From: a virus
Direction: 5' to 3' (one strand)
Length of the DNA: 52,085 nucleotides
Virus record (IMG/VR): IMGVR_UViG_3300030331_004718
Location: 5,525-57,609 of that record
Shown: in pieces, positions 1-52,085 of the stretch
Layout: every line of letters begins with the position of its first letter
Numbering within the stretch: position 1 is the first letter of the stretch
Translations under genes and position numbers: made by a program
Notes under the pieces: generated by a model
Told to the model about the DNA's origin: nothing
The model's input: the letters and a program-made list of their open reading frames with translations, nothing else
The model's database searches: none

Positions 1-451
1 TGTCAAGGTTACGATTTTTGTCATCATGCACAAAACAGAATGGTTGTTGAGGATCTAAAGCTTCAAGTATTTTATGTCCATTGTTGCCATCTTTTATTTC
101 TAAATTGTATGAATCCAGGGGGTCAAATCCAAGTTGATGATAAAAATAATGATCAAACGAAATTTCAGAAGGATCAAACTCATCCCAGTTACTTTGATAC
201 ATTCCTATTTTAAATATATCAACAGAATATTTACAAAGTACAGTCATTATCTTTTCAACTTCATTGTCATCTTCTACTGCTTTAATCACTATATTCTGTT
301 TTTCGCACATGTGTTTAAGCGATGATAGGTTGTGATATTTACAAAACAACAAAACACTGTTATACTTTTCAGCTATTTTGTTAACAGCCGCTTGTTGAAT
401 GATATGATCTCCAAGTCCTAAATGTCCCAAGAATATAGCGTCGGTATTCAT
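1..451 (-). CDS. Glycosyltransferase-like protein, GT9-like N-terminus (3' partial)
   Basis: Reads open from an ATG at 451 and runs off the left edge after about 150 codons, so the C-terminus is missing. The N-terminus FLGHLGLGDHIIQ has the glycine-rich first loop (GxLGDxI-like) seen in GT-B heptosyltransferases of family GT9; alternating strands and helices follow. It starts one base after the stop of the heptose-1-phosphate adenylyltransferase gene, so it belongs to the same operon. Inference: it transfers the heptose activated by the two preceding genes. The donor-binding C-terminal domain is not visible, so the family is tentative. Confidence 0.55.
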   Translation of the reverse strand, partial: MNTDAIFLGHLGLGDHIIQQAAVNKIAEKYNSVLLFCKYHNLSSLKHMCEKQNIVIKAVEDDNEVEKIMTVLCKYSVDIFKIGMYQSNWDEFDPSEISFDHYFYHQLGFDPLDSYNLEIKDGNNGHKILEALDPQQPFCFVHDDKNRNLD

Positions 452-452
452 T

Positions 453-848
453 TTATTTTTCCATCTTTTTGATTATATTAGTACTTGAATAACCATCTAT
501 TTTGTCAAAAAATTCAACTGGGGAGTGTTGTGACCCTATCACTTTTTTGTCTTTATATTCAGATCCTATAATCATAAGGTCTGCATATTTTTCTACAAGT
601 TTTTCTAATTGTTTATCTGAGTCAAATACTAATACACTATCAACCCATCTAATAGCTTTTAACATTTCCATTCTGGATTTTTCATCATTTACTGGTCTTT
701 GACTTCCTTTTAGTTTTTTTACTCTTTCGTCTGAGTCTATACCTACAGTAAGCCATTTGCCTCGTGATTTTGCATATTGTAATAATTTAAGATGTCCTAA
801 GTGTAATACATCAAAACACCCATTGACCCAGATTCTTTTTCCTGTCAT
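453..848 (-). CDS. rfaE2: D-glycero-D-manno-heptose 1-phosphate adenylyltransferase-like
   Basis: 131 residues, the size of the C-terminal domain of HldE/RfaE. GCFDVLHLGH (residues 10-19) is the HxGH nucleotide-binding motif of cytidylyltransferase-fold enzymes in the exact HldE context. GYSSTNIIKK near the C-terminus matches the second nucleotide-binding motif (STTNIIKK in HldE). The family transfers AMP from ATP to heptose 1-phosphate, giving ADP-heptose in the cytoplasm. The ATG overlaps the kinase stop as ATGA, so translation is probably coupled. The fit to HldE is better than to glycerol-3-phosphate cytidylyltransferase, but the sugar cannot be proven from sequence. Confidence 0.85.
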   Translation of the reverse strand: MTGKRIWVNGCFDVLHLGHLKLLQYAKSRGKWLTVGIDSDERVKKLKGSQRPVNDEKSRMEMLKAIRWVDSVLVFDSDKQLEKLVEKYADLMIIGSEYKDKKVIGSQHSPVEFFDKIDGYSSTNIIKKMEK

Positions 849-1630
849 GACTTATTTGTCCTTGATGTTTTTCTATCTTCATACACACATGTTCCTTGTT
901 TTTGAATCACTTGAATACAGCATTGTTGTGCAAAATTAATACTGTCTTCAATTGAGTCAGTTTTATGTAAATGACTAGCAAATGTAGCAGTGAATACATC
1001 TCCTGCACCAGATACATCAAAAGTTTGCAATAGTTTGTGGGGTTTGTAGTTAACTGCTGCAAACCTCACACCCCTACTTCCAAGTGTTAGTATTAGCTTG
1101 TCAGCGTTATTTTTTTTATTGAAAATGTCTTCGTTTTTTTTATATTCTATTTCGTTTAGCTTGATGAAATCAAACGCATCTATAACACTTTGTTTTAAAA
1201 GTCTTTTAGTGTCTAAAATAGATATTCTTCTTTTACTGTTGCCTAGAGTTACCAAATCTTTTTCTTCTAGAAACCCTTTACAATAGTCCGATACAACTAT
1301 TAAATCATCAGCTGTAGAGTTGTCTACAACTTGTTCTATCTTATCATTTGAAACTCTATTTGTAAAGTCGTTAGTATCAACTCTTAGCAAAAGCTGATTC
1401 GTTTTTTTATCTACAAATCTTGTTTTAGTTATTGCCTTGGGATTATTTGATATGAAACAAGCGTCTGGAAAAAATGTTGTTATATTTCTGTATGTGTTAC
1501 CAGCCATGCCAAGTGTTGTGGTTTGCTCAATAGTGTTGAACACCGGAACTGGACCCTCTGGACACATTCTAGAACAAGATCCATATATGTAACGATCTAT
1601 ACAAGAATCTCCAATAACATAAATATTCAT
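845..1630 (-). CDS. rfaE1: PfkB-family heptose 7-phosphate kinase-like
   Basis: 261 residues, shorter than the roughly 310-residue kinase domain of HldE. The start VIGDSCIDRYIYG followed by R..PEGPVPV reproduces the HldE N-terminus, GMAGN (41-45) is the sugar-binding glycine motif, and DVSGAGDVFTA (from about 205) is the PfkB signature with the catalytic Asp. The family phosphorylates D-glycero-D-manno-heptose 7-phosphate at C1. In many bacteria kinase and adenylyltransferase are fused; here they are two genes joined by a 4-nt overlap. No gmhA, gmhB or hldD is in the window, so heptose 7-phosphate must come from the host or from genes outside. The short length suggests trimmed loops, not truncation, since both ends are present. 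Confidence 0.85.
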   Translation of the reverse strand: MNIYVIGDSCIDRYIYGSCSRMCPEGPVPVFNTIEQTTTLGMAGNTYRNITTFFPDACFISNNPKAITKTRFVDKKTNQLLLRVDTNDFTNRVSNDKIEQVVDNSTADDLIVVSDYCKGFLEEKDLVTLGNSKRRISILDTKRLLKQSVIDAFDFIKLNEIEYKKNEDIFNKKNNADKLILTLGSRGVRFAAVNYKPHKLLQTFDVSGAGDVFTATFASHLHKTDSIEDSINFAQQCCIQVIQKQGTCVYEDRKTSRTNKS

Positions 1631-1641
1631 ATCAGTTTTTA

Positions 1642-2355
1642 TTACCTATAATTGCTTGTGTCTATAAATGGCATTATTGGCATTATTTGCTCTTTGTAAT
1701 CATAACACAATCTGTGAAACACTGAACCCATAATTTCATTCCAGTCTATTGGATATTTAGAAGGATGTCCTTGATAAGTGTCTCCTATAGTTGCACGGGG
1801 ATGATAATTTCCATTATGTTTTTTTAATTCTTCTAATTTTTCAGATAAAATATTGTCAACCCTTGTTAGCCAGTTTTCAGTAAATTCGGTATGGCTTTTT
1901 GCTATAAACTTACCACAACCCAAAAAATACCCATTATTACAACACCCTTGTAAGTATTGTCTATTTAGTTCTTGGTTTGGACAAATTTCCTTTAAATTTC
2001 TAACAGCGAGACCTCCCTCTGCTCTTTCACGATATCCACATATTAATTTTGAAGAATCATTGTCAAAAGCATCAAAGTATGGATTCCAATCATATGAGCA
2101 TCTTTTTATATCTGTATAACCGCCACCATGATGGTGTAGTAAGTAAGCCCTTAAGTAATCCGATTTATGGACAGAACTTAAATATTGATAACCTTCATGT
2201 AAAGGAGCATTCTTAGTCCATTCCTTGAGATTACTACTTGTTACAAGAAAAACTTCACATCCTGAATTTTTCTTAATTAATTCTAAACAACTCTTTCTAT
2301 TCGGTGACATTTCATTAGTGTCAGACCATACACAAAATATATGTTTATTAACCAT
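1642..2355 (-). CDS. GT32-like (DXD sugar-binding) glycosyltransferase
   Basis: 237 residues. The segment SDYLRAYLLHHHGGGYTDIK (about 65-84) is the signature of the glycosyltransferase DXD region of the GT32 and capsular polysaccharide synthesis group: an Arg/Asp helix, a GG turn and the acidic metal-binding site. The N-terminal IFCVWSDTNEMSPNRKSC fits the first strand of the GT-A fold. The start is supported by AGGAA upstream of ATG. No membrane helix or signal peptide, so it acts in the cytoplasm. Acceptor and donor unknown. Confidence 0.75.
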   Translation of the reverse strand: MVNKHIFCVWSDTNEMSPNRKSCLELIKKNSGCEVFLVTSSNLKEWTKNAPLHEGYQYLSSVHKSDYLRAYLLHHHGGGYTDIKRCSYDWNPYFDAFDNDSSKLICGYRERAEGGLAVRNLKEICPNQELNRQYLQGCCNNGYFLGCGKFIAKSHTEFTENWLTRVDNILSEKLEELKKHNGNYHPRATIGDTYQGHPSKYPIDWNEIMGSVFHRLCYDYKEQIMPIMPFIDTSNYR

Positions 2356-2383
2356 GTTTTTTCCTAACTATATTGCTTAATGT

Positions 2384-2839
2384 TTAAATTATTTTTTGCA
2401 ATTGTGACATATTCCAGTCGCTTACAATTCCGCATATTTTAATGTTTGCAAAGTTTTCAATTATTTCAGCGTGTGAGTCGCTTCTTGCTATAACCTTTAA
2501 CTTGTCGTTTCGTAAAATATTCATAGCAGTAGAAAAATACACCGGATTTTCCAACCAGTCTAAATTCCATAGATATAAATATCTATCTGATTTGTTGGGC
2601 AGCCTTAAGCTTGATTCAGCTTCTTCTAAAGTTGTAGAGATTAAAACTCCATTATATGATATTAGAAAACTAGCTAATTTACATCCAAACAGAGGCTGTA
2701 TTGGAGGTATTGCATGTCTGTTGCAAAATACACCCACTGACACGTCTGTATCATTTATAGCTTTATTAAATTCTTTAATTAAATAAAATGTATTTTGTGA
2801 CATTGATAAATCATTAACAAGTGCTGCTATTTTTTTCAT
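2384..2839 (-). CDS. Unknown protein in glycosylation island
   Basis: 151 residues, not recognised with certainty. Strand-helix alternation and phrases such as YLYLWNLDWLENP and KVIARSDSHAEIIENF resemble one Rossmann-like half of a GT-B glycosyltransferase, but no EX7E or DXD motif is visible. The start shares one base with the upstream stop (TAATG) and has AAGGAAAG inside the upstream gene, so it is clearly expressed with its neighbours. It may be a stand-alone half domain or an accessory protein. Confidence 0.6.
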   Translation of the reverse strand: MKKIAALVNDLSMSQNTFYLIKEFNKAINDTDVSVGVFCNRHAIPPIQPLFGCKLASFLISYNGVLISTTLEEAESSLRLPNKSDRYLYLWNLDWLENPVYFSTAMNILRNDKLKVIARSDSHAEIIENFANIKICGIVSDWNMSQLQKII

Positions 2840-3558
2840 TATCTTTCCTTATATTGATATTCTCTTTGCTCGTTATTATCTTCGTCAAAGATAAATATTT
2901 CTCCCACAAAATATCGCTCTGAGTCAATGGGGCTTGGGAAGTCCTTTGCCCAATTTTCACATTGCCATTGGACTCGTGACATAAAATCTTTTGCATTATG
3001 AATTGTAGATTGATCAGGTTTTGCAAATTCTGGATATATTACATCTCTGAGGAAATCCATATCTTTCATAATCCATACATCTCTTTCATTTATTCTTTGT
3101 GCTTGACCTCCCTGATACTTGAGAATTGCAGTTTTCATGCAAAAATCTACATCGGCTTTCATTCCCCACATGCCACCAAGTATAGGATATCCATGATGAG
3201 GGTGATCACGCATAATGTGTAAAATTGTGTTATCTTTTATCCATTCTTGCACTGCCTCTTCTTCTCTTTTGGAGAAACGAGAATCTGAGTCTCGAATTAT
3301 AAATCTCTCACACTCAAGATCTGCCGCACAAAAACGCCAAGACGCAGCAAGAATTCCAGATTCCGTCATATCAATCAGTTCAACATCGTGATTTTTCAGG
3401 TGGTTTAGAATTTCTTCTGTTAGTGTATTATCATGAAAAACAACAACCTTCCAATCTTGGTATAGTTGTTGCTCTTTTTTTATTCTTAAGTTTTCGTATA
3501 ACCCTCGAACGTATTTTGGATCATTTCCATACAAAGAAAATGATATAAGTCTGTTCAT
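2839..3558 (-). CDS. GT-A-like glycosyltransferase
   Basis: About 239 residues from the ATG at 3558, which overlaps the upstream stop as ATGA; a longer start at 3570 is open but less likely. ISFSLYGNDPKY at the N-terminus and FIIRDSDSRF (a DXD-type metal site after a strand) suggest a GT-A nucleotide-sugar transferase. HIMRDHPHHGYPILGGMWG is a conserved-looking His-rich acceptor loop that I cannot assign to a CAZy family. Soluble, no signal peptide. Its neighbours on both sides are glycosylation genes. Confidence 0.65.
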   Translation of the reverse strand: MNRLISFSLYGNDPKYVRGLYENLRIKKEQQLYQDWKVVVFHDNTLTEEILNHLKNHDVELIDMTESGILAASWRFCAADLECERFIIRDSDSRFSKREEEAVQEWIKDNTILHIMRDHPHHGYPILGGMWGMKADVDFCMKTAILKYQGGQAQRINERDVWIMKDMDFLRDVIYPEFAKPDQSTIHNAKDFMSRVQWQCENWAKDFPSPIDSERYFVGEIFIFDEDNNEQREYQYKER

Positions 3559-4139
3559 TCTACACCCCATCCCGCTCTGGTGATTGTTAATTCTTCTGTT
3601 GTAAAAGTATATTCTGGTATTTTGCTTTCACCTATAATGTTTTTAGTGTTAAAAAACAAGTTTTCATCATAAGTAATAGTTTTAACAAATTGTTTTTTTC
3701 TCCAAATATTTTCTATTAGATGTGGCCTACCATATATAAATCTATGATTTAGTCTACGGTTTTTGCCCTCAAGAAACCTTTTGCTGTCGCAGCATAAAAC
3801 CAGAGGCAGATCCCAAAAGTCATATTCTTTTAAATCATAACAACAAGACATAACTAAAATTCTTTGTCCTGGTTGTCCCAATGTTTTTAATCTCGATATG
3901 TGTCCTATCATATCCATTTGAAAATCAAAAGCTTTATTTCTAAAATAGTAATCGTCTACTAATTCTAGAGTAGCATCTTTATATCTTTTATCGAACGGTT
4001 CATCTTGAAAAATCACCAATTTGATATACAAATTATCATGATTATTTTTTAAATTTTTAACTGTTTCGCTTATTTGGGGCCAATTCAAAGCTTTTTTGTT
4101 TGAAGTAACTCCAAATAACAATACTGAAACTTTATTCAT
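3555..4139 (-). CDS. Unknown protein in glycosylation island
   Basis: About 194 residues from the ATG at 4139, which has GGAG nine bases upstream; the longer reading from 4166 would overlap the previous gene by 35 bases and lacks such a site. The protein starts with a strand (VSVLLFGVTSN), has a central basic/aromatic region (HRFIYGRPHLIENIW) and no recognised catalytic motif. Possibly a divergent GT-A fold, judging only from its position between two glycosyltransferases and the ATGA overlap with the next gene. Confidence 0.6.
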   Translation of the reverse strand: MNKVSVLLFGVTSNKKALNWPQISETVKNLKNNHDNLYIKLVIFQDEPFDKRYKDATLELVDDYYFRNKAFDFQMDMIGHISRLKTLGQPGQRILVMSCCYDLKEYDFWDLPLVLCCDSKRFLEGKNRRLNHRFIYGRPHLIENIWRKKQFVKTITYDENLFFNTKNIIGESKIPEYTFTTEELTITRAGWGVE

Positions 4140-4893
4140 GTAAATATTCTCCACAAACATGGTCAAAAAATGATTGTATTGTTGAAGGATATTCTTTATA
4201 ATATTTACACGCTATTGCATATTTTTCAATATCTTCATTAAACATTATTGCACGTTTCTTTGCTGGCAGCACACAAATTTTTATATCTGTACATGTCTTA
4301 AATTTTATACCACTATAATAAGCCCTCATAGACATTTCACCATCAGCACAGTAGTATTTATAATGTGTATTGTAAAGTCCATGTTTTTTAAATACATTTT
4401 TTTTATAAATACCATAATTCATAACAATTTCTCCAACAACCGGGTTGGGATAATAATATTCTGCACAATTATGAAGTTTCCAGCCATTGTCACGCATACC
4501 AGAGCAATGCAGCCAGTCAGGATCTTGCATTGACTCAACATTTCCCTCTTTCCAGTTAAAAAGATATGCATCATGCTTGTCATCAATTTTATCTATTACG
4601 TCACTCCATTTATTGCAGAGAAGAATGTCATCATTCCATTGACCAACATATTCATAAGAAGCGTTTTTTATTCCAAGATTCATATAGTGAGCATACGGAC
4701 TTCTTTCTCCCACTTCAATCAATTTTATTCTATTATGTGTTAAGTTTTTTATATATTTACAGGTGCCATCGTCACTTCCCCCATCTACTAGTACTAGCTC
4801 AACTCTATCATCTGCATAGACGGTATTTTCTAACAGTGATTGTAAATATTGTTTTCTATTTAGCGTCCCTGTAACTATACTAATTCCTTGCAT
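4132..4893 (-). CDS. GT2-family glycosyltransferase
   Basis: The N-terminus GISIVTGTLNRKQYLQSLL and VELVLVDGGSDDGT are the first two strands of a GT2 (GT-A) transferase; YVGQWNDDILL holds the DXD-equivalent NDD. The second ATG (4893) is preferred because a GGGGGG stretch lies nine bases before it. Transfers a sugar from a nucleotide donor; acceptor unknown. No membrane helices, so cytoplasmic. Overlaps the following gene by 8 nt. Confidence 0.85.
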   Translation of the reverse strand: MQGISIVTGTLNRKQYLQSLLENTVYADDRVELVLVDGGSDDGTCKYIKNLTHNRIKLIEVGERSPYAHYMNLGIKNASYEYVGQWNDDILLCNKWSDVIDKIDDKHDAYLFNWKEGNVESMQDPDWLHCSGMRDNGWKLHNCAEYYYPNPVVGEIVMNYGIYKKNVFKKHGLYNTHYKYYCADGEMSMRAYYSGIKFKTCTDIKICVLPAKKRAIMFNEDIEKYAIACKYYKEYPSTIQSFFDHVCGEYLHE

Positions 4894-5497
4894 ATACAGC
4901 ATCCCCCCAACTTTCGGATTGCCATGCTGTAGCTATTCTCTTGAATCCAAAAGGTTGTAAAAAATTATCTAGATCTTGTATCATTGGACATCCTTCATAA
5001 ACTTCATCTCTGTTGACTTCTAAAATCATAGAATCAATTTTAGGTAGGCAGTTTATAGCACCCTTTAGCACTTCTAGTTCGTAGCCCTGAACATCAATAT
5101 TTAAAAAATTATATTCATCTTTGTGATAGTTGTCCAACATGTCTACTTTTACATCTATTGTTTCTTTAAATGATATTTCGGCATGTTCTATGAGATGTTT
5201 CTTTGGCTTCATTAAAGAGCTAGAAGCACCACAACCATTTCTAATTCCCCCTTCTCTCCAAGAGACGTACATTTCTTTTGTGTCACATTTTGAACCCAGG
5301 GCCACATTATGAATCGTTTCATTTGATGTACATTTGTCTTTTACTATGTTATATAGGTTTGGTTGCGGCTCAAACATTATAGTATTGTATAAATCTAGCT
5401 TTCTGTAGCTTTCTAATTCTTCTCCAACAAAAGCTCCAACATGCATTACGCCAGTAATAGGCCAATTTTTATGTATTTCATTAATGTCGAATATCAT
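4880..5497 (-). CDS. FkbM-family methyltransferase
   Basis: 205 residues. GVMHVGAFVGEE (motif I, SAM binding), TIMFEPQPN (motif II acidic strand) and NFLNIDVQGYELEVLKGA (the FkbM hallmark) occur in order. The family O-methylates sugars or other small hydroxyl groups with S-adenosylmethionine. Inference: methylates a residue of the glycan built by the neighbours. ATG overlaps the upstream stop as TAATG, with AAGGAA as RBS. Confidence 0.88.
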   Translation of the reverse strand: MIFDINEIHKNWPITGVMHVGAFVGEELESYRKLDLYNTIMFEPQPNLYNIVKDKCTSNETIHNVALGSKCDTKEMYVSWREGGIRNGCGASSSLMKPKKHLIEHAEISFKETIDVKVDMLDNYHKDEYNFLNIDVQGYELEVLKGAINCLPKIDSMILEVNRDEVYEGCPMIQDLDNFLQPFGFKRIATAWQSESWGDAVYARN

Positions 5498-6414
5498 TAT
5501 TCAATTCCTTTGAGAATATCAATTTCCGTATGGCAACATTCTATGCTTGGAAACTGTATTTTTTCTATATCAATTCTTTTTCCTTGGTTGAATAAATCTA
5601 GAAATTCTGACGCAGATATATCAAAAACTTGTCCGTTATTATTTGGTATTGTATCTTGAACGCGATTGTTTGGACTGTTAACTACGCAGCTCTCTTTATA
5701 GATTGCTTGAAATGGTGCTGTTAGTGCTACATATCTTTGCAGGGCTGATTCAAATTCATTAGGGGTCTGTTTCCAATTTTTGATTGGCTCTATATATGCA
5801 AGTTCCTTGACATATTCAAAAATTTCTTCAATTTGGTATATATGTCCGTCAACAGACAATGGGTAGTTCCAGTACCCTCCATGAAAATGTTGTGTTCTGT
5901 CATAGAAAATTATACCACGATCATGTTGGATTATGTTTTGAGTATTACTATAAAGTAAAGGCTCTTCTATAAAACCTTCCTCTCCAGACATTCCCCTTTT
6001 GTTGATGTTTAATCCCAATCTCAAAGAAAGATTAGATACTATTTTTTTATTTGTGCCCGATTCAATTATGGTCTCAAAAACATTTTTTAAGAAATCATTA
6101 GATAGTGCATTTGATTTTTTGTATACAATGCAATCATCTGTTAGAAAACCACAATATGCATTAGTGTCTTTAGACAGACTCCACCAATAAATAATTGTTT
6201 GAATATCTTTAAATATTGATTTACTTTGTTGCCAAAAACGAACAGTGTTATGTTCTTTTTTTAAAAGATTGTATGAGTCTGTGTACATGTCATCACAGTC
6301 GTATAATACATATAAATCTAATTCACAATCTATTAGATTTTTTTTAATACTAGACAAACATAAATCTAATTGTAATGGTCTGTTTTTACTGAATACTATC
6401 AAACAAGTCTTCAA
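5497..6414 (-). CDS. GT-A-like glycosyltransferase (TTG start)
   Basis: 305 residues. CLIVFSKNRPLQLDLCLSSI is a GT-A first strand and helix, DLYVLYDCDD a second strand, and YCGFLTDDCIVY carries the DXD-like acidic pair. The C-terminal half (HFHGGYWNYPLSVDGHIY) resembles acceptor-binding regions of poorly described phage and bacterial glycosyltransferases. The start is TTG, chosen because AAGGAG sits seven to eight bases upstream within the end of the preceding gene; the overlap is 29 bases. Family not assignable by eye. Confidence 0.7.
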   Translation of the reverse strand: MKTCLIVFSKNRPLQLDLCLSSIKKNLIDCELDLYVLYDCDDMYTDSYNLLKKEHNTVRFWQQSKSIFKDIQTIIYWWSLSKDTNAYCGFLTDDCIVYKKSNALSNDFLKNVFETIIESGTNKKIVSNLSLRLGLNINKRGMSGEEGFIEEPLLYSNTQNIIQHDRGIIFYDRTQHFHGGYWNYPLSVDGHIYQIEEIFEYVKELAYIEPIKNWKQTPNEFESALQRYVALTAPFQAIYKESCVVNSPNNRVQDTIPNNNGQVFDISASEFLDLFNQGKRIDIEKIQFPSIECCHTEIDILKGIE

Positions 6415-7387
6415 AACCCTTCTCCTTTTTAAATCTATAGTACCAGCTTACAGTTTCCTTTAGTCCGTCATATAATTTTGTTTGTGCTTGGAAGTTTAAA
6501 ACTTTTGCAGCTCTGCTGACATCCAAACATCGTCTCGGCTGGCCATCAGGGAAGTCGCCATTGTAAACAATCTTTCCTTCGTATCCCATAATTTCAATCA
6601 ACATGTTTGCAAGTTCTTTTATTTTAATTTCACTACATGTTCCAATGTTTATAGGATGAGGCGTTGTGTCTACTTCCAATGATTTAATAATCGCATCAGC
6701 ACAATCATCAACATATAGAAATTCTCTACTAACATTTCCACTGCCCCATAGTTCAATGGTATTTTCGTTGTTTTGAATGGCTTTATCTATTTTTAAAATA
6801 AGTGCAGGAATAACATGACTGCTGCTTGGATTAAAATTGTCATTTGGTCCATACATATTGACAGGAATTAAGTTGGTAGATTCTAGGCCATATTGATTTT
6901 TGTATGCAATGAGCATTTCCATCAATGTTTTTTTTGCGATACCGTAGGGTGCGTTTGTTTCCTCTGGGTAGCCGTTCCATATATCTTCTTCTTTGAATGG
7001 AACTGTAGTAAACTTAGGATAGGCACACACGGTTCCCACCATAATGAATTTTTTTAAATTGCCATACCTTCTTGCGGTTTCAATAAGATTCATACCCATG
7101 GCTAGATTATCATATAAAAATTTTCCAGGCTGTTCTCTATTGATGCCAATGCCGCCACACGCTGCTGCCAGATGAATAACATAGTCTGGCTGGTATTGAG
7201 ACATGGCGTAATCTACATATTTTTGTTTTGTTAAATCCCAGTACTTTTTACCACCAAGGGGAATTACTTTATACTTTTTCCCGTTTGTGTCTAACCATGC
7301 GTGGGGTTTTGTGGTTAATTTATTTGTTACCGCTTTTCCTAAAAAACCAGAAGATCCGGTAATCAAAACTTTAGGTTGGTTAGCCAT
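6386..7387 (-). CDS. fcl: GDP-L-fucose synthase-type NAD(P)-dependent epimerase/reductase
   Basis: 333 residues, close to the usual length of about 320. VLITGSSGFLG (7-17) is the GxxGxxG cofactor loop; HLAAACGGIGIN is typical of GDP-L-fucose synthase (Fcl/WcaG); the catalytic triad is seen as the Ser/Thr of VGTVCAYPK and the YxxxK of YGIAKK. The family converts GDP-4-keto-6-deoxy-D-mannose to GDP-L-fucose or a related GDP-deoxysugar. GDP-mannose dehydratase is not in the window. Two HxRxGD-type (fucosyltransferase-like) enzymes are encoded at 45812-47488. HldD-type heptose epimerase is a less likely alternative. Confidence 0.88.
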   Translation of the reverse strand: MANQPKVLITGSSGFLGKAVTNKLTTKPHAWLDTNGKKYKVIPLGGKKYWDLTKQKYVDYAMSQYQPDYVIHLAAACGGIGINREQPGKFLYDNLAMGMNLIETARRYGNLKKFIMVGTVCAYPKFTTVPFKEEDIWNGYPEETNAPYGIAKKTLMEMLIAYKNQYGLESTNLIPVNMYGPNDNFNPSSSHVIPALILKIDKAIQNNENTIELWGSGNVSREFLYVDDCADAIIKSLEVDTTPHPINIGTCSEIKIKELANMLIEIMGYEGKIVYNGDFPDGQPRRCLDVSRAAKVLNFQAQTKLYDGLKETVSWYYRFKKEKGFEDLFDSIQ

Positions 7388-15212: not shown

Positions 15213-16781
15213 TCAAATTTGTGACACTTGATTTACAATAAAAGAAGTTTTTTTTCTTTTGTCTACTTCTCCCATCAATAATACCGTATTATTATCTAGT
15301 AATAGATCTTTATACTTGTCGTAAGGTTCGGGAAAGATGACAACATCTTCTAGAGAGCCACTACCATCTTCTACTGTAAGAAAGGCCATTTCTTGGCCTG
15401 GATTTTTACCACGTTTGGTTTTTACAATTTTAACACGCACAATCTCTATAGCTAGGTTTGCTTTCTTTGTTATCACTCCACTGGACACATCTTGACACAA
15501 ATTTGTTACCATATTTAAATCTAATCCGTCAACTTTATTGCAGGTCAGGCTGCAACTCATATATTTCTCTTCATCTGCTGCGATTGTTACAGCCTTATCT
15601 CCAAGATCGTAAAATGGACTGTCTAGTGATTCTTTGATATCTTGTACTGTGGGCATTCTTCTAGAGTTAATTTTAATGGTGTTTGTCATGTGCGATATAG
15701 CTTCTGACAAACTTGATGCATAAACAGAAGGATCGCCGCTTTCATGATTTTCTGCAATGGCCTTTTGTTCCCTAGCCGATAGTTGCTTCCAGCTATCAAA
15801 TTCATATAGCATTTTTTGACGACTTTCGCGGTTATTGGCTCCATTAAAAGCACCAACTGAAATTAACGCTATCGTAGATCTTTTATTCAAATTTAATTTG
15901 TATATAATTTTTAACAAACAATCCAGCCAAGTATATTCACTTACATTGCCTAAAGTTTCTAGTTTTTCACACTCTTTGCCCCCTACGTGTTTGATATGTT
16001 GTAGCCCATAGTATACAATATCTTTTTCTGTATTTCTGGTGAAGTTAGTGTAAAGATGTTGTAGCCTGGGGGGCAGGACATCAATATTGGCACGTTTGGC
16101 ATCCATAATCAATTGCTTCTTCTCAACATCTGGGTCTGGTTTTCTATCAGCACGATTCAAATAAGTATTGTAAAACTTCTTTAATCTATGTGTTTTACAG
16201 TAGGCGGACCAATATGCATTGATAGCATATGAAACCGCATGAGACTTATTGAAAGCATAACGATTTGATTTTTCAATCCATGAGAAAATTTCTTCTGCGA
16301 TTTCCTTGGTGACAGTGCCCTGTCTCTCTGCACCCTCTAGGAAAGACTTCTTTACTTTCTCCATAAGATCAGCTTTCTTTTTACCGATAGCCTTACGCAG
16401 TGCGTCTGCGTCCTTCAAATCGAAACCAGCAAGTTGTTGTGCAATCATCATAGATTGTTCTTGATAAACAAGTACACCAAATGTTTCTTTAAGAATTGGC
16501 TCAAGGGAATCGTGGAGGTATTCTAGTGGAGAGTCTGGCTTTTTTGCTTTTCTATCAGCATAAACCTGGGTCATGCTTTTTCCGTTAGCATCTCTAGCCA
16601 ACAAAGTACCAGGACGAATAAGACTTACCAGAGCCGCTAATTCTTTAATGTTTCTGGGCTGAATTTCTTTTGCCCAATGTTTGCCTAGATTAGACTCTAA
16701 CTGAAAAACACCTTTAGTATTTCCATCGCAAATGAGATCCCAAACTTCAGGATCGTCAAAATTATTAATATCAAAACTCAT
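15213..16781 (-). CDS. dnaE: DNA polymerase III alpha subunit, C-terminal half
   Basis: 522 residues. Begins DDPEVWDLICDGNTKGVFQLES, the start of the finger region in DnaE, then GVLVYQEQSMMIAQ, ALRKAIGKKK and RYAFNKSHAVSYA, all standard DnaE motifs. The end (EMAFLTVEDGSGSLEDVVIFP, then LLMGEV) is the OB domain. The cyanobacterial split-intein position corresponds to Y|CFNKSH; here it is intact as YAFNKSH. No intein C-terminal sequence precedes the first motif. It must pair with the N-terminal half at 19008-20564. ATGA overlap with the upstream methyltransferase and AAGG RBS. Confidence 0.95.
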   Translation of the reverse strand: MSFDINNFDDPEVWDLICDGNTKGVFQLESNLGKHWAKEIQPRNIKELAALVSLIRPGTLLARDANGKSMTQVYADRKAKKPDSPLEYLHDSLEPILKETFGVLVYQEQSMMIAQQLAGFDLKDADALRKAIGKKKADLMEKVKKSFLEGAERQGTVTKEIAEEIFSWIEKSNRYAFNKSHAVSYAINAYWSAYCKTHRLKKFYNTYLNRADRKPDPDVEKKQLIMDAKRANIDVLPPRLQHLYTNFTRNTEKDIVYYGLQHIKHVGGKECEKLETLGNVSEYTWLDCLLKIIYKLNLNKRSTIALISVGAFNGANNRESRQKMLYEFDSWKQLSAREQKAIAENHESGDPSVYASSLSEAISHMTNTIKINSRRMPTVQDIKESLDSPFYDLGDKAVTIAADEEKYMSCSLTCNKVDGLDLNMVTNLCQDVSSGVITKKANLAIEIVRVKIVKTKRGKNPGQEMAFLTVEDGSGSLEDVVIFPEPYDKYKDLLLDNNTVLLMGEVDKRKKTSFIVNQVSQI

Positions 16782-18794: not shown

Positions 18795-19015
18795 GAAACT
18801 CTTCTCTTTTGCTTTAGTTCTATAAATTTCTTTACAGCATCATCAATGTTGTAATAAAGAGAATGAAAATTTAATCTGTCAGAACAAACTTGATATTTAG
18901 CCCTCGGTACAAAATTATGCATAAAGTTTTCTAAATTACACAAAGATACTCCATTGGATTCTACGGCTGAACCATCAAAGACAACAGCACGATATATTTC
19001 AAAGTAATTACTCAT
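18791..19015 (-). CDS. Unknown small protein after polymerase N-terminal half
   Basis: 74 residues from ATG 19015; a GTG at 19021 is also in frame. It overlaps the polymerase N-terminal half by 8 bases and the GT2 gene by 4, so it is cotranslated with both. YFEIYRAVVFDGSAVESNGVS looks like a beta-hairpin, followed by a C-terminal basic helix (FIELKQKRR). No family recognised. Confidence 0.6.
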   Translation of the reverse strand: MSNYFEIYRAVVFDGSAVESNGVSLCNLENFMHNFVPRAKYQVCSDRLNFHSLYYNIDDAVKKFIELKQKRRVS

Positions 19016-20564
19016 CTTCACAAATCTCCATTATTTTAGAAAGTAGGTCAATTCCAAGAACGTCAAACTTTACATGTCCTTGAGTTTCTAATGCATTCAT
19101 TTCAAAGGCTACAACTGGATCTCCAGATTTGTCAACAGTCATGGGACAAACATTTGATAAAACGTGTTGAGATATTACAACTCCGGCAGGGTGTTTTCCC
19201 TGAGACTTATTTGTTCCTTCGATATTTATAGCTTGCTCAAATAGATTAGCCAAAGGCCCGTCAAGTTTATCTTCATTGTAGAAGACCCAGTTCTTCAATT
19301 TTTCAGGTTCATTTTCAAGTGTCCACCTAATAACAGATTTGTCATCCATCAATTCAAGCTGGTCGGAAATCTTGGCTTCATCAGGTATACTATCTGTTAT
19401 CTCATTCATTTCAGCAAAAGACACAGCTTCGTTTATCCTTAATACTTCTTTTACAGCAGAACGACCCTGTAGTCTACCGAATGTAATCATTTGTGCTACG
19501 TTTTGTTCGCCATATTTTTGTTTCATATAATCAATAACTTCATCCCTATGTTCAGCGGGAACGTCCATATCAATATCTGGAATTGCAATATTCCCGTCTG
19601 TGTTTCTACCTTCGTTATAGAATCTTTCAAAGATTAAATCATATTCTATCGGGTCAACCTCTGTGATATCTAGCAAATAAGAAACAAGACATCCGGCAGC
19701 AGATCCGCGACCAGGACCAGCGAGCCAACCTTGTGATTTTACCCAACTTATAATATCTTGTACAATTAAAAAGTAGCCAGAAAGTTGAGCCTTAAAAATA
19801 ACCTTAAGTTCATGTTTTACTCTTTCTGCATAAATATTCCTGTTAGTGGCATTTGATACCTTGTCACTAGGTATTAGTTTTGTTTTCCATCCTTCTCGAC
19901 AAAGTTCTGTTAGATATTCATCTTCATCAAATCCCTCGGGGCAATCAAAGGTGGGAAATGAGGGCTGATCTGCAAGATCATATTCTTCGCAGCGATCTAC
20001 AATTTTAGAAACGTCTGATTCTCTACCTGATGTTTGCAAGTACCACTGATCATCGCCGTTAAAAAACTGTTCATAGTCATGTTCAACGTTTTTGATTTTC
20101 TTTAGAGTGGTTTTGAGCTTACCACAAAGCATGATTCTATGGCACTCAGCATCACTCTGATCAACATAATAGATTGCCTGCGGCTCATAGTCAAGCTGTA
20201 TATGATTACCCTTAAAGAGATTTGCAAATCCGTTTACATTTGATGTCACGCATAGAACATTACCATTGGCGGCAACTTCTTTTAGTACATTAAGATTTTG
20301 ATTTGAAACATATCTAACAAGGTCGAACCAGCCGTTTTTGTTTTTTGCATATAAAATATACCCATCAAATTGACATCCGATGATTGGTTTAATTCCATGT
20401 TTTTTGCAGTCTTGTTGGAATTCTACAGCACCAGATACGGTTCCAAAGTCCGCAATACCACAGGCCGAGTAACCATATTCAGAGCAACGTTTTGCCAACT
20501 TATCCGTTTTACAAAACCCATGCTGTAGACTGAAGTGAGTTTTACAATTAATGGGATTCCACAT
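19008..20564 (-). CDS. dnaE: DNA polymerase III alpha subunit, N-terminal half (PHP + catalytic palm)
   Basis: 518 residues from the ATG at 20564 (GAGGAA upstream; the TTG at 20576 is less likely). PHP domain: THFSLQHGF and GIADFGTVSGAVEFQ, where the usual DHG is DFG, so one metal-binding His is lost. Palm: GWLAGPGRGSAAGCLVSYLL, then IPDIDMDVPAEHRD with two catalytic Asp. HPAGVVIS and VKFDVLGIDLLSKI carry the third Asp region. It ends a few residues after that motif, exactly where the C-terminal half begins. All catalytic aspartates are in this half. Driven by the promoter at 20598-20626. Confidence 0.95.
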   Translation of the reverse strand: MWNPINCKTHFSLQHGFCKTDKLAKRCSEYGYSACGIADFGTVSGAVEFQQDCKKHGIKPIIGCQFDGYILYAKNKNGWFDLVRYVSNQNLNVLKEVAANGNVLCVTSNVNGFANLFKGNHIQLDYEPQAIYYVDQSDAECHRIMLCGKLKTTLKKIKNVEHDYEQFFNGDDQWYLQTSGRESDVSKIVDRCEEYDLADQPSFPTFDCPEGFDEDEYLTELCREGWKTKLIPSDKVSNATNRNIYAERVKHELKVIFKAQLSGYFLIVQDIISWVKSQGWLAGPGRGSAAGCLVSYLLDITEVDPIEYDLIFERFYNEGRNTDGNIAIPDIDMDVPAEHRDEVIDYMKQKYGEQNVAQMITFGRLQGRSAVKEVLRINEAVSFAEMNEITDSIPDEAKISDQLELMDDKSVIRWTLENEPEKLKNWVFYNEDKLDGPLANLFEQAINIEGTNKSQGKHPAGVVISQHVLSNVCPMTVDKSGDPVVAFEMNALETQGHVKFDVLGIDLLSKIMEICEDE

Positions 20565-20597
20565 AATGTTCCTCAATTATTTAATAGATGTTTCCCT

Positions 20598-34589: not shown

Positions 34590-35042
34590 CTATTCTCCAT
34601 TGTAGTCTTCTTTAACTTTTCCTAGCAATTGACTAGACGATGTGGTTTTTTCGCCTCCAACATTGTAGCGTAGATATATTCCATTTTGCTTACAAAATTC
34701 TGCTTCTGGAGTATTATCTCCGGCCCTATCTCCTCCATTCATAAAATATATACCATTTACAAATGGATCATCACAATGCATATTGTAAATTTTTTGAATG
34801 GACTTTACAACAGTATGATCTTCATCTATAGAAAGTATAGCCATATGAACAGCTTCCAAAGCGTTTATAATTCTAAGCCTTGAAACCTCATCCATAAAGT
34901 TGGTAGAGCCTTTAAGTTTTACCTGATTGTCATTATTTACAATAACGTAAAGCCATTCACACTTTTCTTTTGCACCCTGTATATAGTCCAAATGACCAGT
35001 GTGAATTGGATTAAAGTATCCTGAAACAATTCCTATTCTCAA
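34590..35042 (-). CDS. Cytidylyltransferase-fold nucleotidyltransferase (TTG start)
   Basis: 150 residues. GIVSGYFNPIHTGHLDYI has HxGH, and TTSSSQLLGKV near the end corresponds to the second ATP/CTP motif. IYFMNGGDRAGDN is a strand with GGD typical of RfaE2/TagD-type enzymes. Substrate unknown: glycerol phosphate, a sugar phosphate or a nicotinamide-type substrate are all possible. The start is TTG, overlapping the nrdB stop as TTGA with AGGAG seven bases upstream. A distinct paralogue of the enzyme at 453-848. Confidence 0.8.
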   Translation of the reverse strand: MRIGIVSGYFNPIHTGHLDYIQGAKEKCEWLYVIVNNDNQVKLKGSTNFMDEVSRLRIINALEAVHMAILSIDEDHTVVKSIQKIYNMHCDDPFVNGIYFMNGGDRAGDNTPEAEFCKQNGIYLRYNVGGEKTTSSSQLLGKVKEDYNGE

Positions 35043-51656: not shown

Positions 51657-52085
51657 TTATTTTTTCTTATGAATGCCAAATCCATTTCTGTCATGTGAAT
51701 CAATAATACAGTCCCACTCTGGATCGTCTAGCAATTCTCGGTGTGCCATTCTTGTTTTTAACTCTAGCGTGTCGTCAAGAATTATAATTTTTGATTTAGG
51801 TTTAAGCAATTTAAATTCTGCAAAAGTGCTAAATTCACCACCATCCAACAGTAGTACATCTATTTCCATGTTTTCTAAAAGGTGTGCTTCATTGTTACAG
51901 CTTTTAAAAGCCTTTACGTCGTCATCAAAGAATCTTTTAGAGAGGGATTTATGTACATGGTTTTCGTAATTCGCTTTTACATGTGGAGTTTCTAGGGTCC
52001 ACATGTCTTCTATTTCAATAATCCTTCCATGCACTAAGTTAAACTGATTATTAGGCTTATCCCCCCAAAAATTCAAAGCCTGATC
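51657..52085 (-). CDS. Methyltransferase-like protein (5' partial)
   Basis: The frame is open to the right edge (at least 142 codons), so the N-terminus is outside; the TTG at 52076 is not a convincing start. VDVLLLDGGEFSTFAEF, KSKIIILDDTLELKTRMAHREL and WDCIIDSHDRNGFGIHKKK match the C-terminal half of class I SAM methyltransferases of the Methyltransf_24/CmcI type (strand with D.GG, LDD after strand 5, final beta hairpin). It may modify a sugar like the other methyltransferases here. Confidence 0.6.
   Translation of the reverse strand, partial: DQALNFWGDKPNNQFNLVHGRIIEIEDMWTLETPHVKANYENHVHKSLSKRFFDDDVKAFKSCNNEAHLLENMEIDVLLLDGGEFSTFAEFKLLKPKSKIIILDDTLELKTRMAHRELLDDPEWDCIIDSHDRNGFGIHKKK

Follow-up and report, generated by a model that had tools for sequence, protein, structure and literature searches.

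The window, a stretch of 52,085 nucleotides covering bases 5525-57609 of a 57,609-base IMG/VR virus record (label L002), encodes at its left end a gene pair that probably (we put the probability at roughly 0.7) accounts for two steps in the making of a nucleotide-heptose, those of the kinase and of the nucleotidyltransferase, within a large phage gene set for glycan modification. As a module the pair is already known from phages, being annotated in T4-like cyanophages and described in the literature among LPS genes, and the window adds a member to it; phage heptose genes have been described before (PMC3037559, PMC7378029). The genes concerned are, in window coordinates:

2..451, minus strand: small GT-B-like, possibly heptosyltransferase-like protein, first 150 aa, broken by an assembly gap left of the window
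453..848, minus strand: HldC-like (HldE domain II-like) nucleotidyltransferase with cytidylyltransferase fold, 131 aa
845..1630, minus strand: HldA-like (HldE domain I-like) PfkB kinase, 261 aa, a phage-specific shortened form
1642..2355, minus strand: capsular/DXD-type glycosyltransferase, the adjoining upstream gene (PF05704 and PF04488 above cut-off)
6386..7387, minus strand: GDP-fucose-synthase-like SDR, not HldD (NF047922 268 bits vs 57 bits for heptose_epim, TIGR02197)

Layout and family assignment of the gene pair

On the minus strand, the kinase gene (1630-845) is followed by the nucleotidyltransferase gene (848-453) and the transferase-like ORF (from 451). The kinase stop codon TGA (847-845) and the nucleotidyltransferase start codon ATG (848-846) overlap by four bases (ATGA), and a single base (452) separates the end of the nucleotidyltransferase gene (453) from the start of the third ORF (451). 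An earlier sequence-only reading of the window had described the genes as consecutive, with this overlap and this spacer, and its account holds to the base; the motifs that it quoted are likewise all found in the translations, with DRYIYG..CPEGPVPV and DVSGAGD in the kinase, and GCFDVLHLGH and SSTNIIKK in the nucleotidyltransferase. The kinase carries both the PfkB motif DxxGAGD and the HldE motif PE.PVPV. What can be read directly from the sequences is the order of the genes, their families, the intact catalytic motifs and a linkage kept across phages.

In profile searches, the kinase scored best with TIGR02198 (rfaE_dom_I; 115 bits, E 3e-33), ahead of full-length HldE (80 bits) and ribokinase (45 bits), and the nucleotidyltransferase with TIGR02199 (rfaE_dom_II; 111 bits, E 3e-32), ahead of g3p_cytidyltrns (54 bits). 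The proposal that this phage encodes HldE-type kinase and nucleotidyltransferase as separate genes next to a transferase-like one is borne out by these searches, in which the best matches of both proteins were HldE models and neither other PfkB kinases nor glycerol-3-phosphate cytidylyltransferase. As both scores lie under the equivalog/trusted cut-offs (345 bits for TIGR02198, 181.5 bits for TIGR02199), the kinase was filed as HldA-like, not as an equivalog, and the nucleotidyltransferase as HldC-like. Both families are already present in PHROGs (kinase, phrog_8133, E 3e-62; nucleotidyltransferase, phrog_7878, E 4e-38), one of them under the name heptose kinase/adenylyltransferase. The profile scores, together with the fact that other phages have kept the pair, exclude chance. 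Searched against the PDB, a profile of the phage kinases had HldA (4e84) as best match with 91 bits, the next chain scoring 46 bits, and the nucleotidyltransferase profile had ethanolamine-phosphate and glycerol-phosphate cytidylyltransferases at the top, with HldC-like chains not separated. The likeness to bacterial HldE, or HldA plus HldC, consists in the best-scoring curated families and the catalytic motifs in common; bacterial HldE kinase domains are, however, longer and many are fused to the nucleotidyltransferase, whereas that of the phage is shorter by two segments and stays below the cut-off score.

A further HldC-like nucleotidyltransferase, a more distant one (TIGR02199, 51 bits), is encoded apart from the pair at window positions 34590-35042, and also at positions 1685-2137 of contig L181.

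A clade of shortened phage kinases

Aligned with cellular HldE, the phage kinases have two gaps, one of about 30 residues past the first quarter and one of about 17 further on, and the kinase of the window is less than full length through the absence of the same two segments. Kept in the phage clade are R..PE.PVPV, K.R.....NQ..R.D, SDY.KG and D..GAGD (DVSGAGD). In a tree of 46 sequences with fructokinase as outgroup, the short kinases form a single clade (support 100/99) beside cellular HldE, on a long stem of 1.25 changes per column, and the window kinase groups with those of contigs L003, L004, L092 and L094 (support 100/100). Four short kinases from cell bins (Winogradskyella, Prochlorococcus, Thaumarchaeota and 'Bifidobacterium breve') fall inside the phage clade; the contigs that carry them may be phage, islands or contamination. 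At least 562 stretches in IMG/VR encode a relative of the kinase, which marks the family as common in environmental phages.

The scores below cut-off, the long stem of the phage clade and the proximity of the nucleotidyltransferase profile to cytidylyltransferases in the PDB would also fit a pair that activates a different sugar, for example another heptose, a hexose or a pentose phosphate, and does so with CTP or a different nucleotide, the HldE relatives having been re-purposed for a capsule-type sugar. We consider this unlikely, given that the HldE-specific motifs are kept and that the nucleotidyltransferase favours rfaE_dom_II over g3p_cytidyltrns two to one; further points on both sides arise from the neighbouring genes and the hosts described below.

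The transferase-like third gene

The third ORF is incomplete because the window begins directly after a gap of 10 N (record positions 5515-5524). Contig L003, 98.7% identical, has about 69 bases where the window record has this gap, and left of the gap a frame goes on with ...EIHCMDSSFALMIDRA...WKVYY and then a stop codon, so that the gene should be about as long as its intact counterparts, which measure 226 aa in L004 and 234 aa in L092. The L003 protein has this N-terminal part fused to a further domain and comprises 502 aa.

The third protein had been called GT9-like, for which there is no match at the sequence level: the GT9 profile PF01075 matched neither in five records nor in the intact L004 and L003 proteins, and a search of the PDB sequences with a profile of the third protein found nothing. 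A structural model built from six sequences (pLDDT 67) consists of two Rossmann-like halves. Its top Foldseek matches were TibC, solved with ADP-heptose, and then a GT9 protein, with WaaC lower (best E 0.025), and a second structure comparison with the same model gave the GT9 protein 3tov (Z 9.4), TibC (8.6) and WaaF (8.2), with WaaC listed and other GT-B proteins tying with these. The modelled fold bears a weak resemblance to ADP-heptosyltransferases. The GT9 heptosyltransferases WaaC, WaaF and TibC come among the top structural ranks for the model with its two halves, but their solved chains comprise 303-390 aa vs 226-234 aa in the phage protein, and sequence similarity is not detectable.

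Four further contigs (L003, L004, L092, L094) show the same linkage of kinase, nucleotidyltransferase and transferase, and weak homologues of the transferase are part of the pair-bearing clusters in cyanophages S-T4 and S-SM2. On the strength of this linkage in five contigs and of the cyanophage homologues, the transferase-like protein likely acts downstream of the pair, which is thereby tied to a small transferase.

Relatives in T4-like cyanophages

The pair occurs in the T4-like cyanophages P-SSM2, P-TIM68, S-SM2, S-SSM7, S-CAM1, S-CAM3 and S-T4. Of seven LPS genes found to co-occur by Sullivan et al. (2010), four are T4-GC 304, 305, 307 and 308, and the authors stated that it was not known whether they function (PMC3037559). 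These LPS clusters (T4-GC 304/305 in P-SSM2, S-SM2, S-SSM7, and those of P-TIM68, S-CAM1, S-CAM3 and S-T4) contain the same two families, usually adjacent and co-directional within sugar gene clusters; the kinases are, however, only 32-39% identical to that of the window, and the nucleotidyltransferase often precedes the kinase, unlike in the window. Several of them also hold an HldD-like epimerase, a small HAD and a cupin, whereas the window record is without all three. For the HldD-like T4-GC 308, TIGR02197 scored 210 bits and the next unrelated family, GalE, 52 bits, and such an epimerase is found in the pair-bearing clusters of five cyanophages. Epimerase, HAD phosphatase and cupin beside the pair in cyanophages support heptose as the substrate, and the epimerase argues against the activation of a different sugar.

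Replication genes of the DnaB type and the DNA polymerase III type set the window phage apart from the T4-like cyanophages; helicase and polymerase searches matched only distant isolates, and a search of the window phage for the terminase PF03237 gave no match. Known from T4-like cyanophages, the heptose-type sugar activation pair is thereby seen also in a lineage whose replication genes differ. The DNA polymerase III alpha of the window appears as two ORFs (15213-16781 and 19008-20576), with exonuclease-like, methyltransferase and GT2-type genes between them.

T4-GC 306 was considered and rejected as a phosphoheptose isomerase, the name that it bears in GenBank (NC_006883.2 PSSM2_311, L005 14719-15063, and orthologues). 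It is HAD phosphatase-like and not a SIS-domain isomerase, with HAD motifs (DIDGTIC...TARG...DDKG) and a weak match to the EcbF-BcbF capsule phosphatase, so that the database label is corrected to a HAD-type protein. GmhA (TIGR00441) was found in none of 26 phage records and four further records or genomes, which may include fragments.

Sugar genes in the record of the window

The sequence-only reading had pointed to the left of the window for gmhA, gmhB and hldD. None of these lies there; a KdsC-like HAD phosphatase is encoded about 0.8 kb before the window begins, along with other sugar genes. The record also contains DegT, Gfo/Idh and ATP-grasp genes and many glycosyltransferases. Throughout the record, which may itself be a fragment, searches for gmhA (PF13580, TIGR00441), HldD, the cupin and the small HAD found none, the sole TIGR02197 match being the SDR at 6386..7387. 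That this SDR is GDP-fucose-synthase-like rather than HldD speaks for the activation of a different sugar. Within the same clade, the nucleotidyltransferase and transferase-like genes of L004 flank a cupin gene. The HldD candidate of the L004 record (best match 120 bits) was discarded, since its sequence reads as a GalE/WbpP-like SDR, and the L092 and L094 records gave weak HldD matches only.

Left of the window, sugar genes fill about 5 kb of the record (positions 282-5349), in place of which there is about 0.85 kb in L003 (7866-8716), a contig otherwise 98.7% identical to the window record over 7.6 kb. By this comparison, the segment is a glycan cassette that can be swapped, and the assembly gap lies at its border. 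Hypervariability next to the pair would suit genes that are mere passengers ('stuffer DNA') without function in infection, a point that Sullivan et al. (2010) left undecided for the cyanophage LPS genes (PMC3037559). For the pair we regard this as very improbable, as the frames are open, the catalytic residues are invariant across a widely diverged clade, the pathway genes repeatedly co-occur and the kinase has its many IMG/VR relatives.

The last 427 bases of the window (51659-52085) repeat record positions 4724-5150 with 96% identity, within a methyltransferase-like gene, and represent either a second copy or an assembly artefact.

Proposed pathway and purpose

In the favoured nucleotide-heptose pathway, the kinase would phosphorylate heptose 7-phosphate at C1, a HAD phosphatase, perhaps the product of the KdsC-like gene left of the window, would take off the 7-phosphate, and the second enzyme would link the resulting heptose 1-phosphate with a nucleotide, which would probably be AMP taken from ATP. 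From the presumed ADP carrier, the small GT-B-like protein could then move the heptose onto a glycan or protein, in the service of the host surface glycan, of the decoration of the virion or of other glycans. As the record has no gmhA, heptose 7-phosphate would come from the host or from an unrecognised isomerase.

The LPS of the marine Synechococcus strains WH8102 and CC9311 is reported to be without heptose (PMC4515613), which speaks against simple LPS-core synthesis in cyanophage hosts, lends some weight to the activation of a different sugar and raises the question of what these phages decorate. A link to the gut and innate immunity, suggested earlier on account of ADP-heptose, finds no support, the isolated relatives being marine cyanophages, and for the window phage it is speculation. 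Searches of a limited literature collection found nothing relevant on ADP-heptose as a phage auxiliary gene, or on a cupin in heptose synthesis.

Locus survey and the associated cupin

Among the at least 562 stretches encoding a relative of the kinase, 80 IMG/VR contigs with the kinase were fetched, and co-occurrence was counted over the 57 loci with at least 3 kb on both sides. The cupin goes with the nucleotidyltransferase (29/34 loci with it vs 3/23 without, Fisher test, p 6e-8), as does the small HAD (23/34 vs 2/23, p 9e-6); related loci were counted as independent, so that both p-values overstate the evidence.

The cupin of L004 scored over the cut-off of the D-lyxose isomerase profile PF07385, a cupin profile searched against the PDB had the D-lyxose isomerases 2y0o and 7nzo first, and for a confident cupin model (pLDDT 88) D-lyxose isomerases and phosphomannose isomerase headed the Foldseek list. 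Judged by these searches, the best relatives of the cupin are ketose-aldose isomerases; other cupins tie with them by Z-score, so that fold alone does not determine its function. Making manno-heptose 7-phosphate out of sedoheptulose 7-phosphate takes the same type of isomerisation as making lyxose out of xylulose. From this correspondence and the isomerase kinship comes the suggestion that the cupin stands in for GmhA. Such phages, together with one cell bin, would then possess a nucleotide-heptose pathway in which the D-lyxose/phosphomannose isomerase-type cupin makes manno-heptose 7-phosphate from sedoheptulose 7-phosphate, followed by the shortened kinase, the small HAD phosphatase, the nucleotidyltransferase and the HldD-like epimerase, with the small GT-B-like transferase using the product and the window phage representing a reduced form without the cupin. 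We offer this scheme tentatively and think it doubtful as a whole; should the cupin turn out to be the missing isomerase, an entry to nucleotide-heptose without GmhA could be tested directly.

The whole gene set is found on a cell-bin contig titled Bifidobacterium breve (L101, 3160-8855), with a GT-like gene, nucleotidyltransferase, cupin, dehydrogenase, E1-like enzyme, kinase, HldD-like SDR and HAD. A search of the genome of this bin for GmhA gave no match, and the genes beside the set look like those of another actinobacterium.
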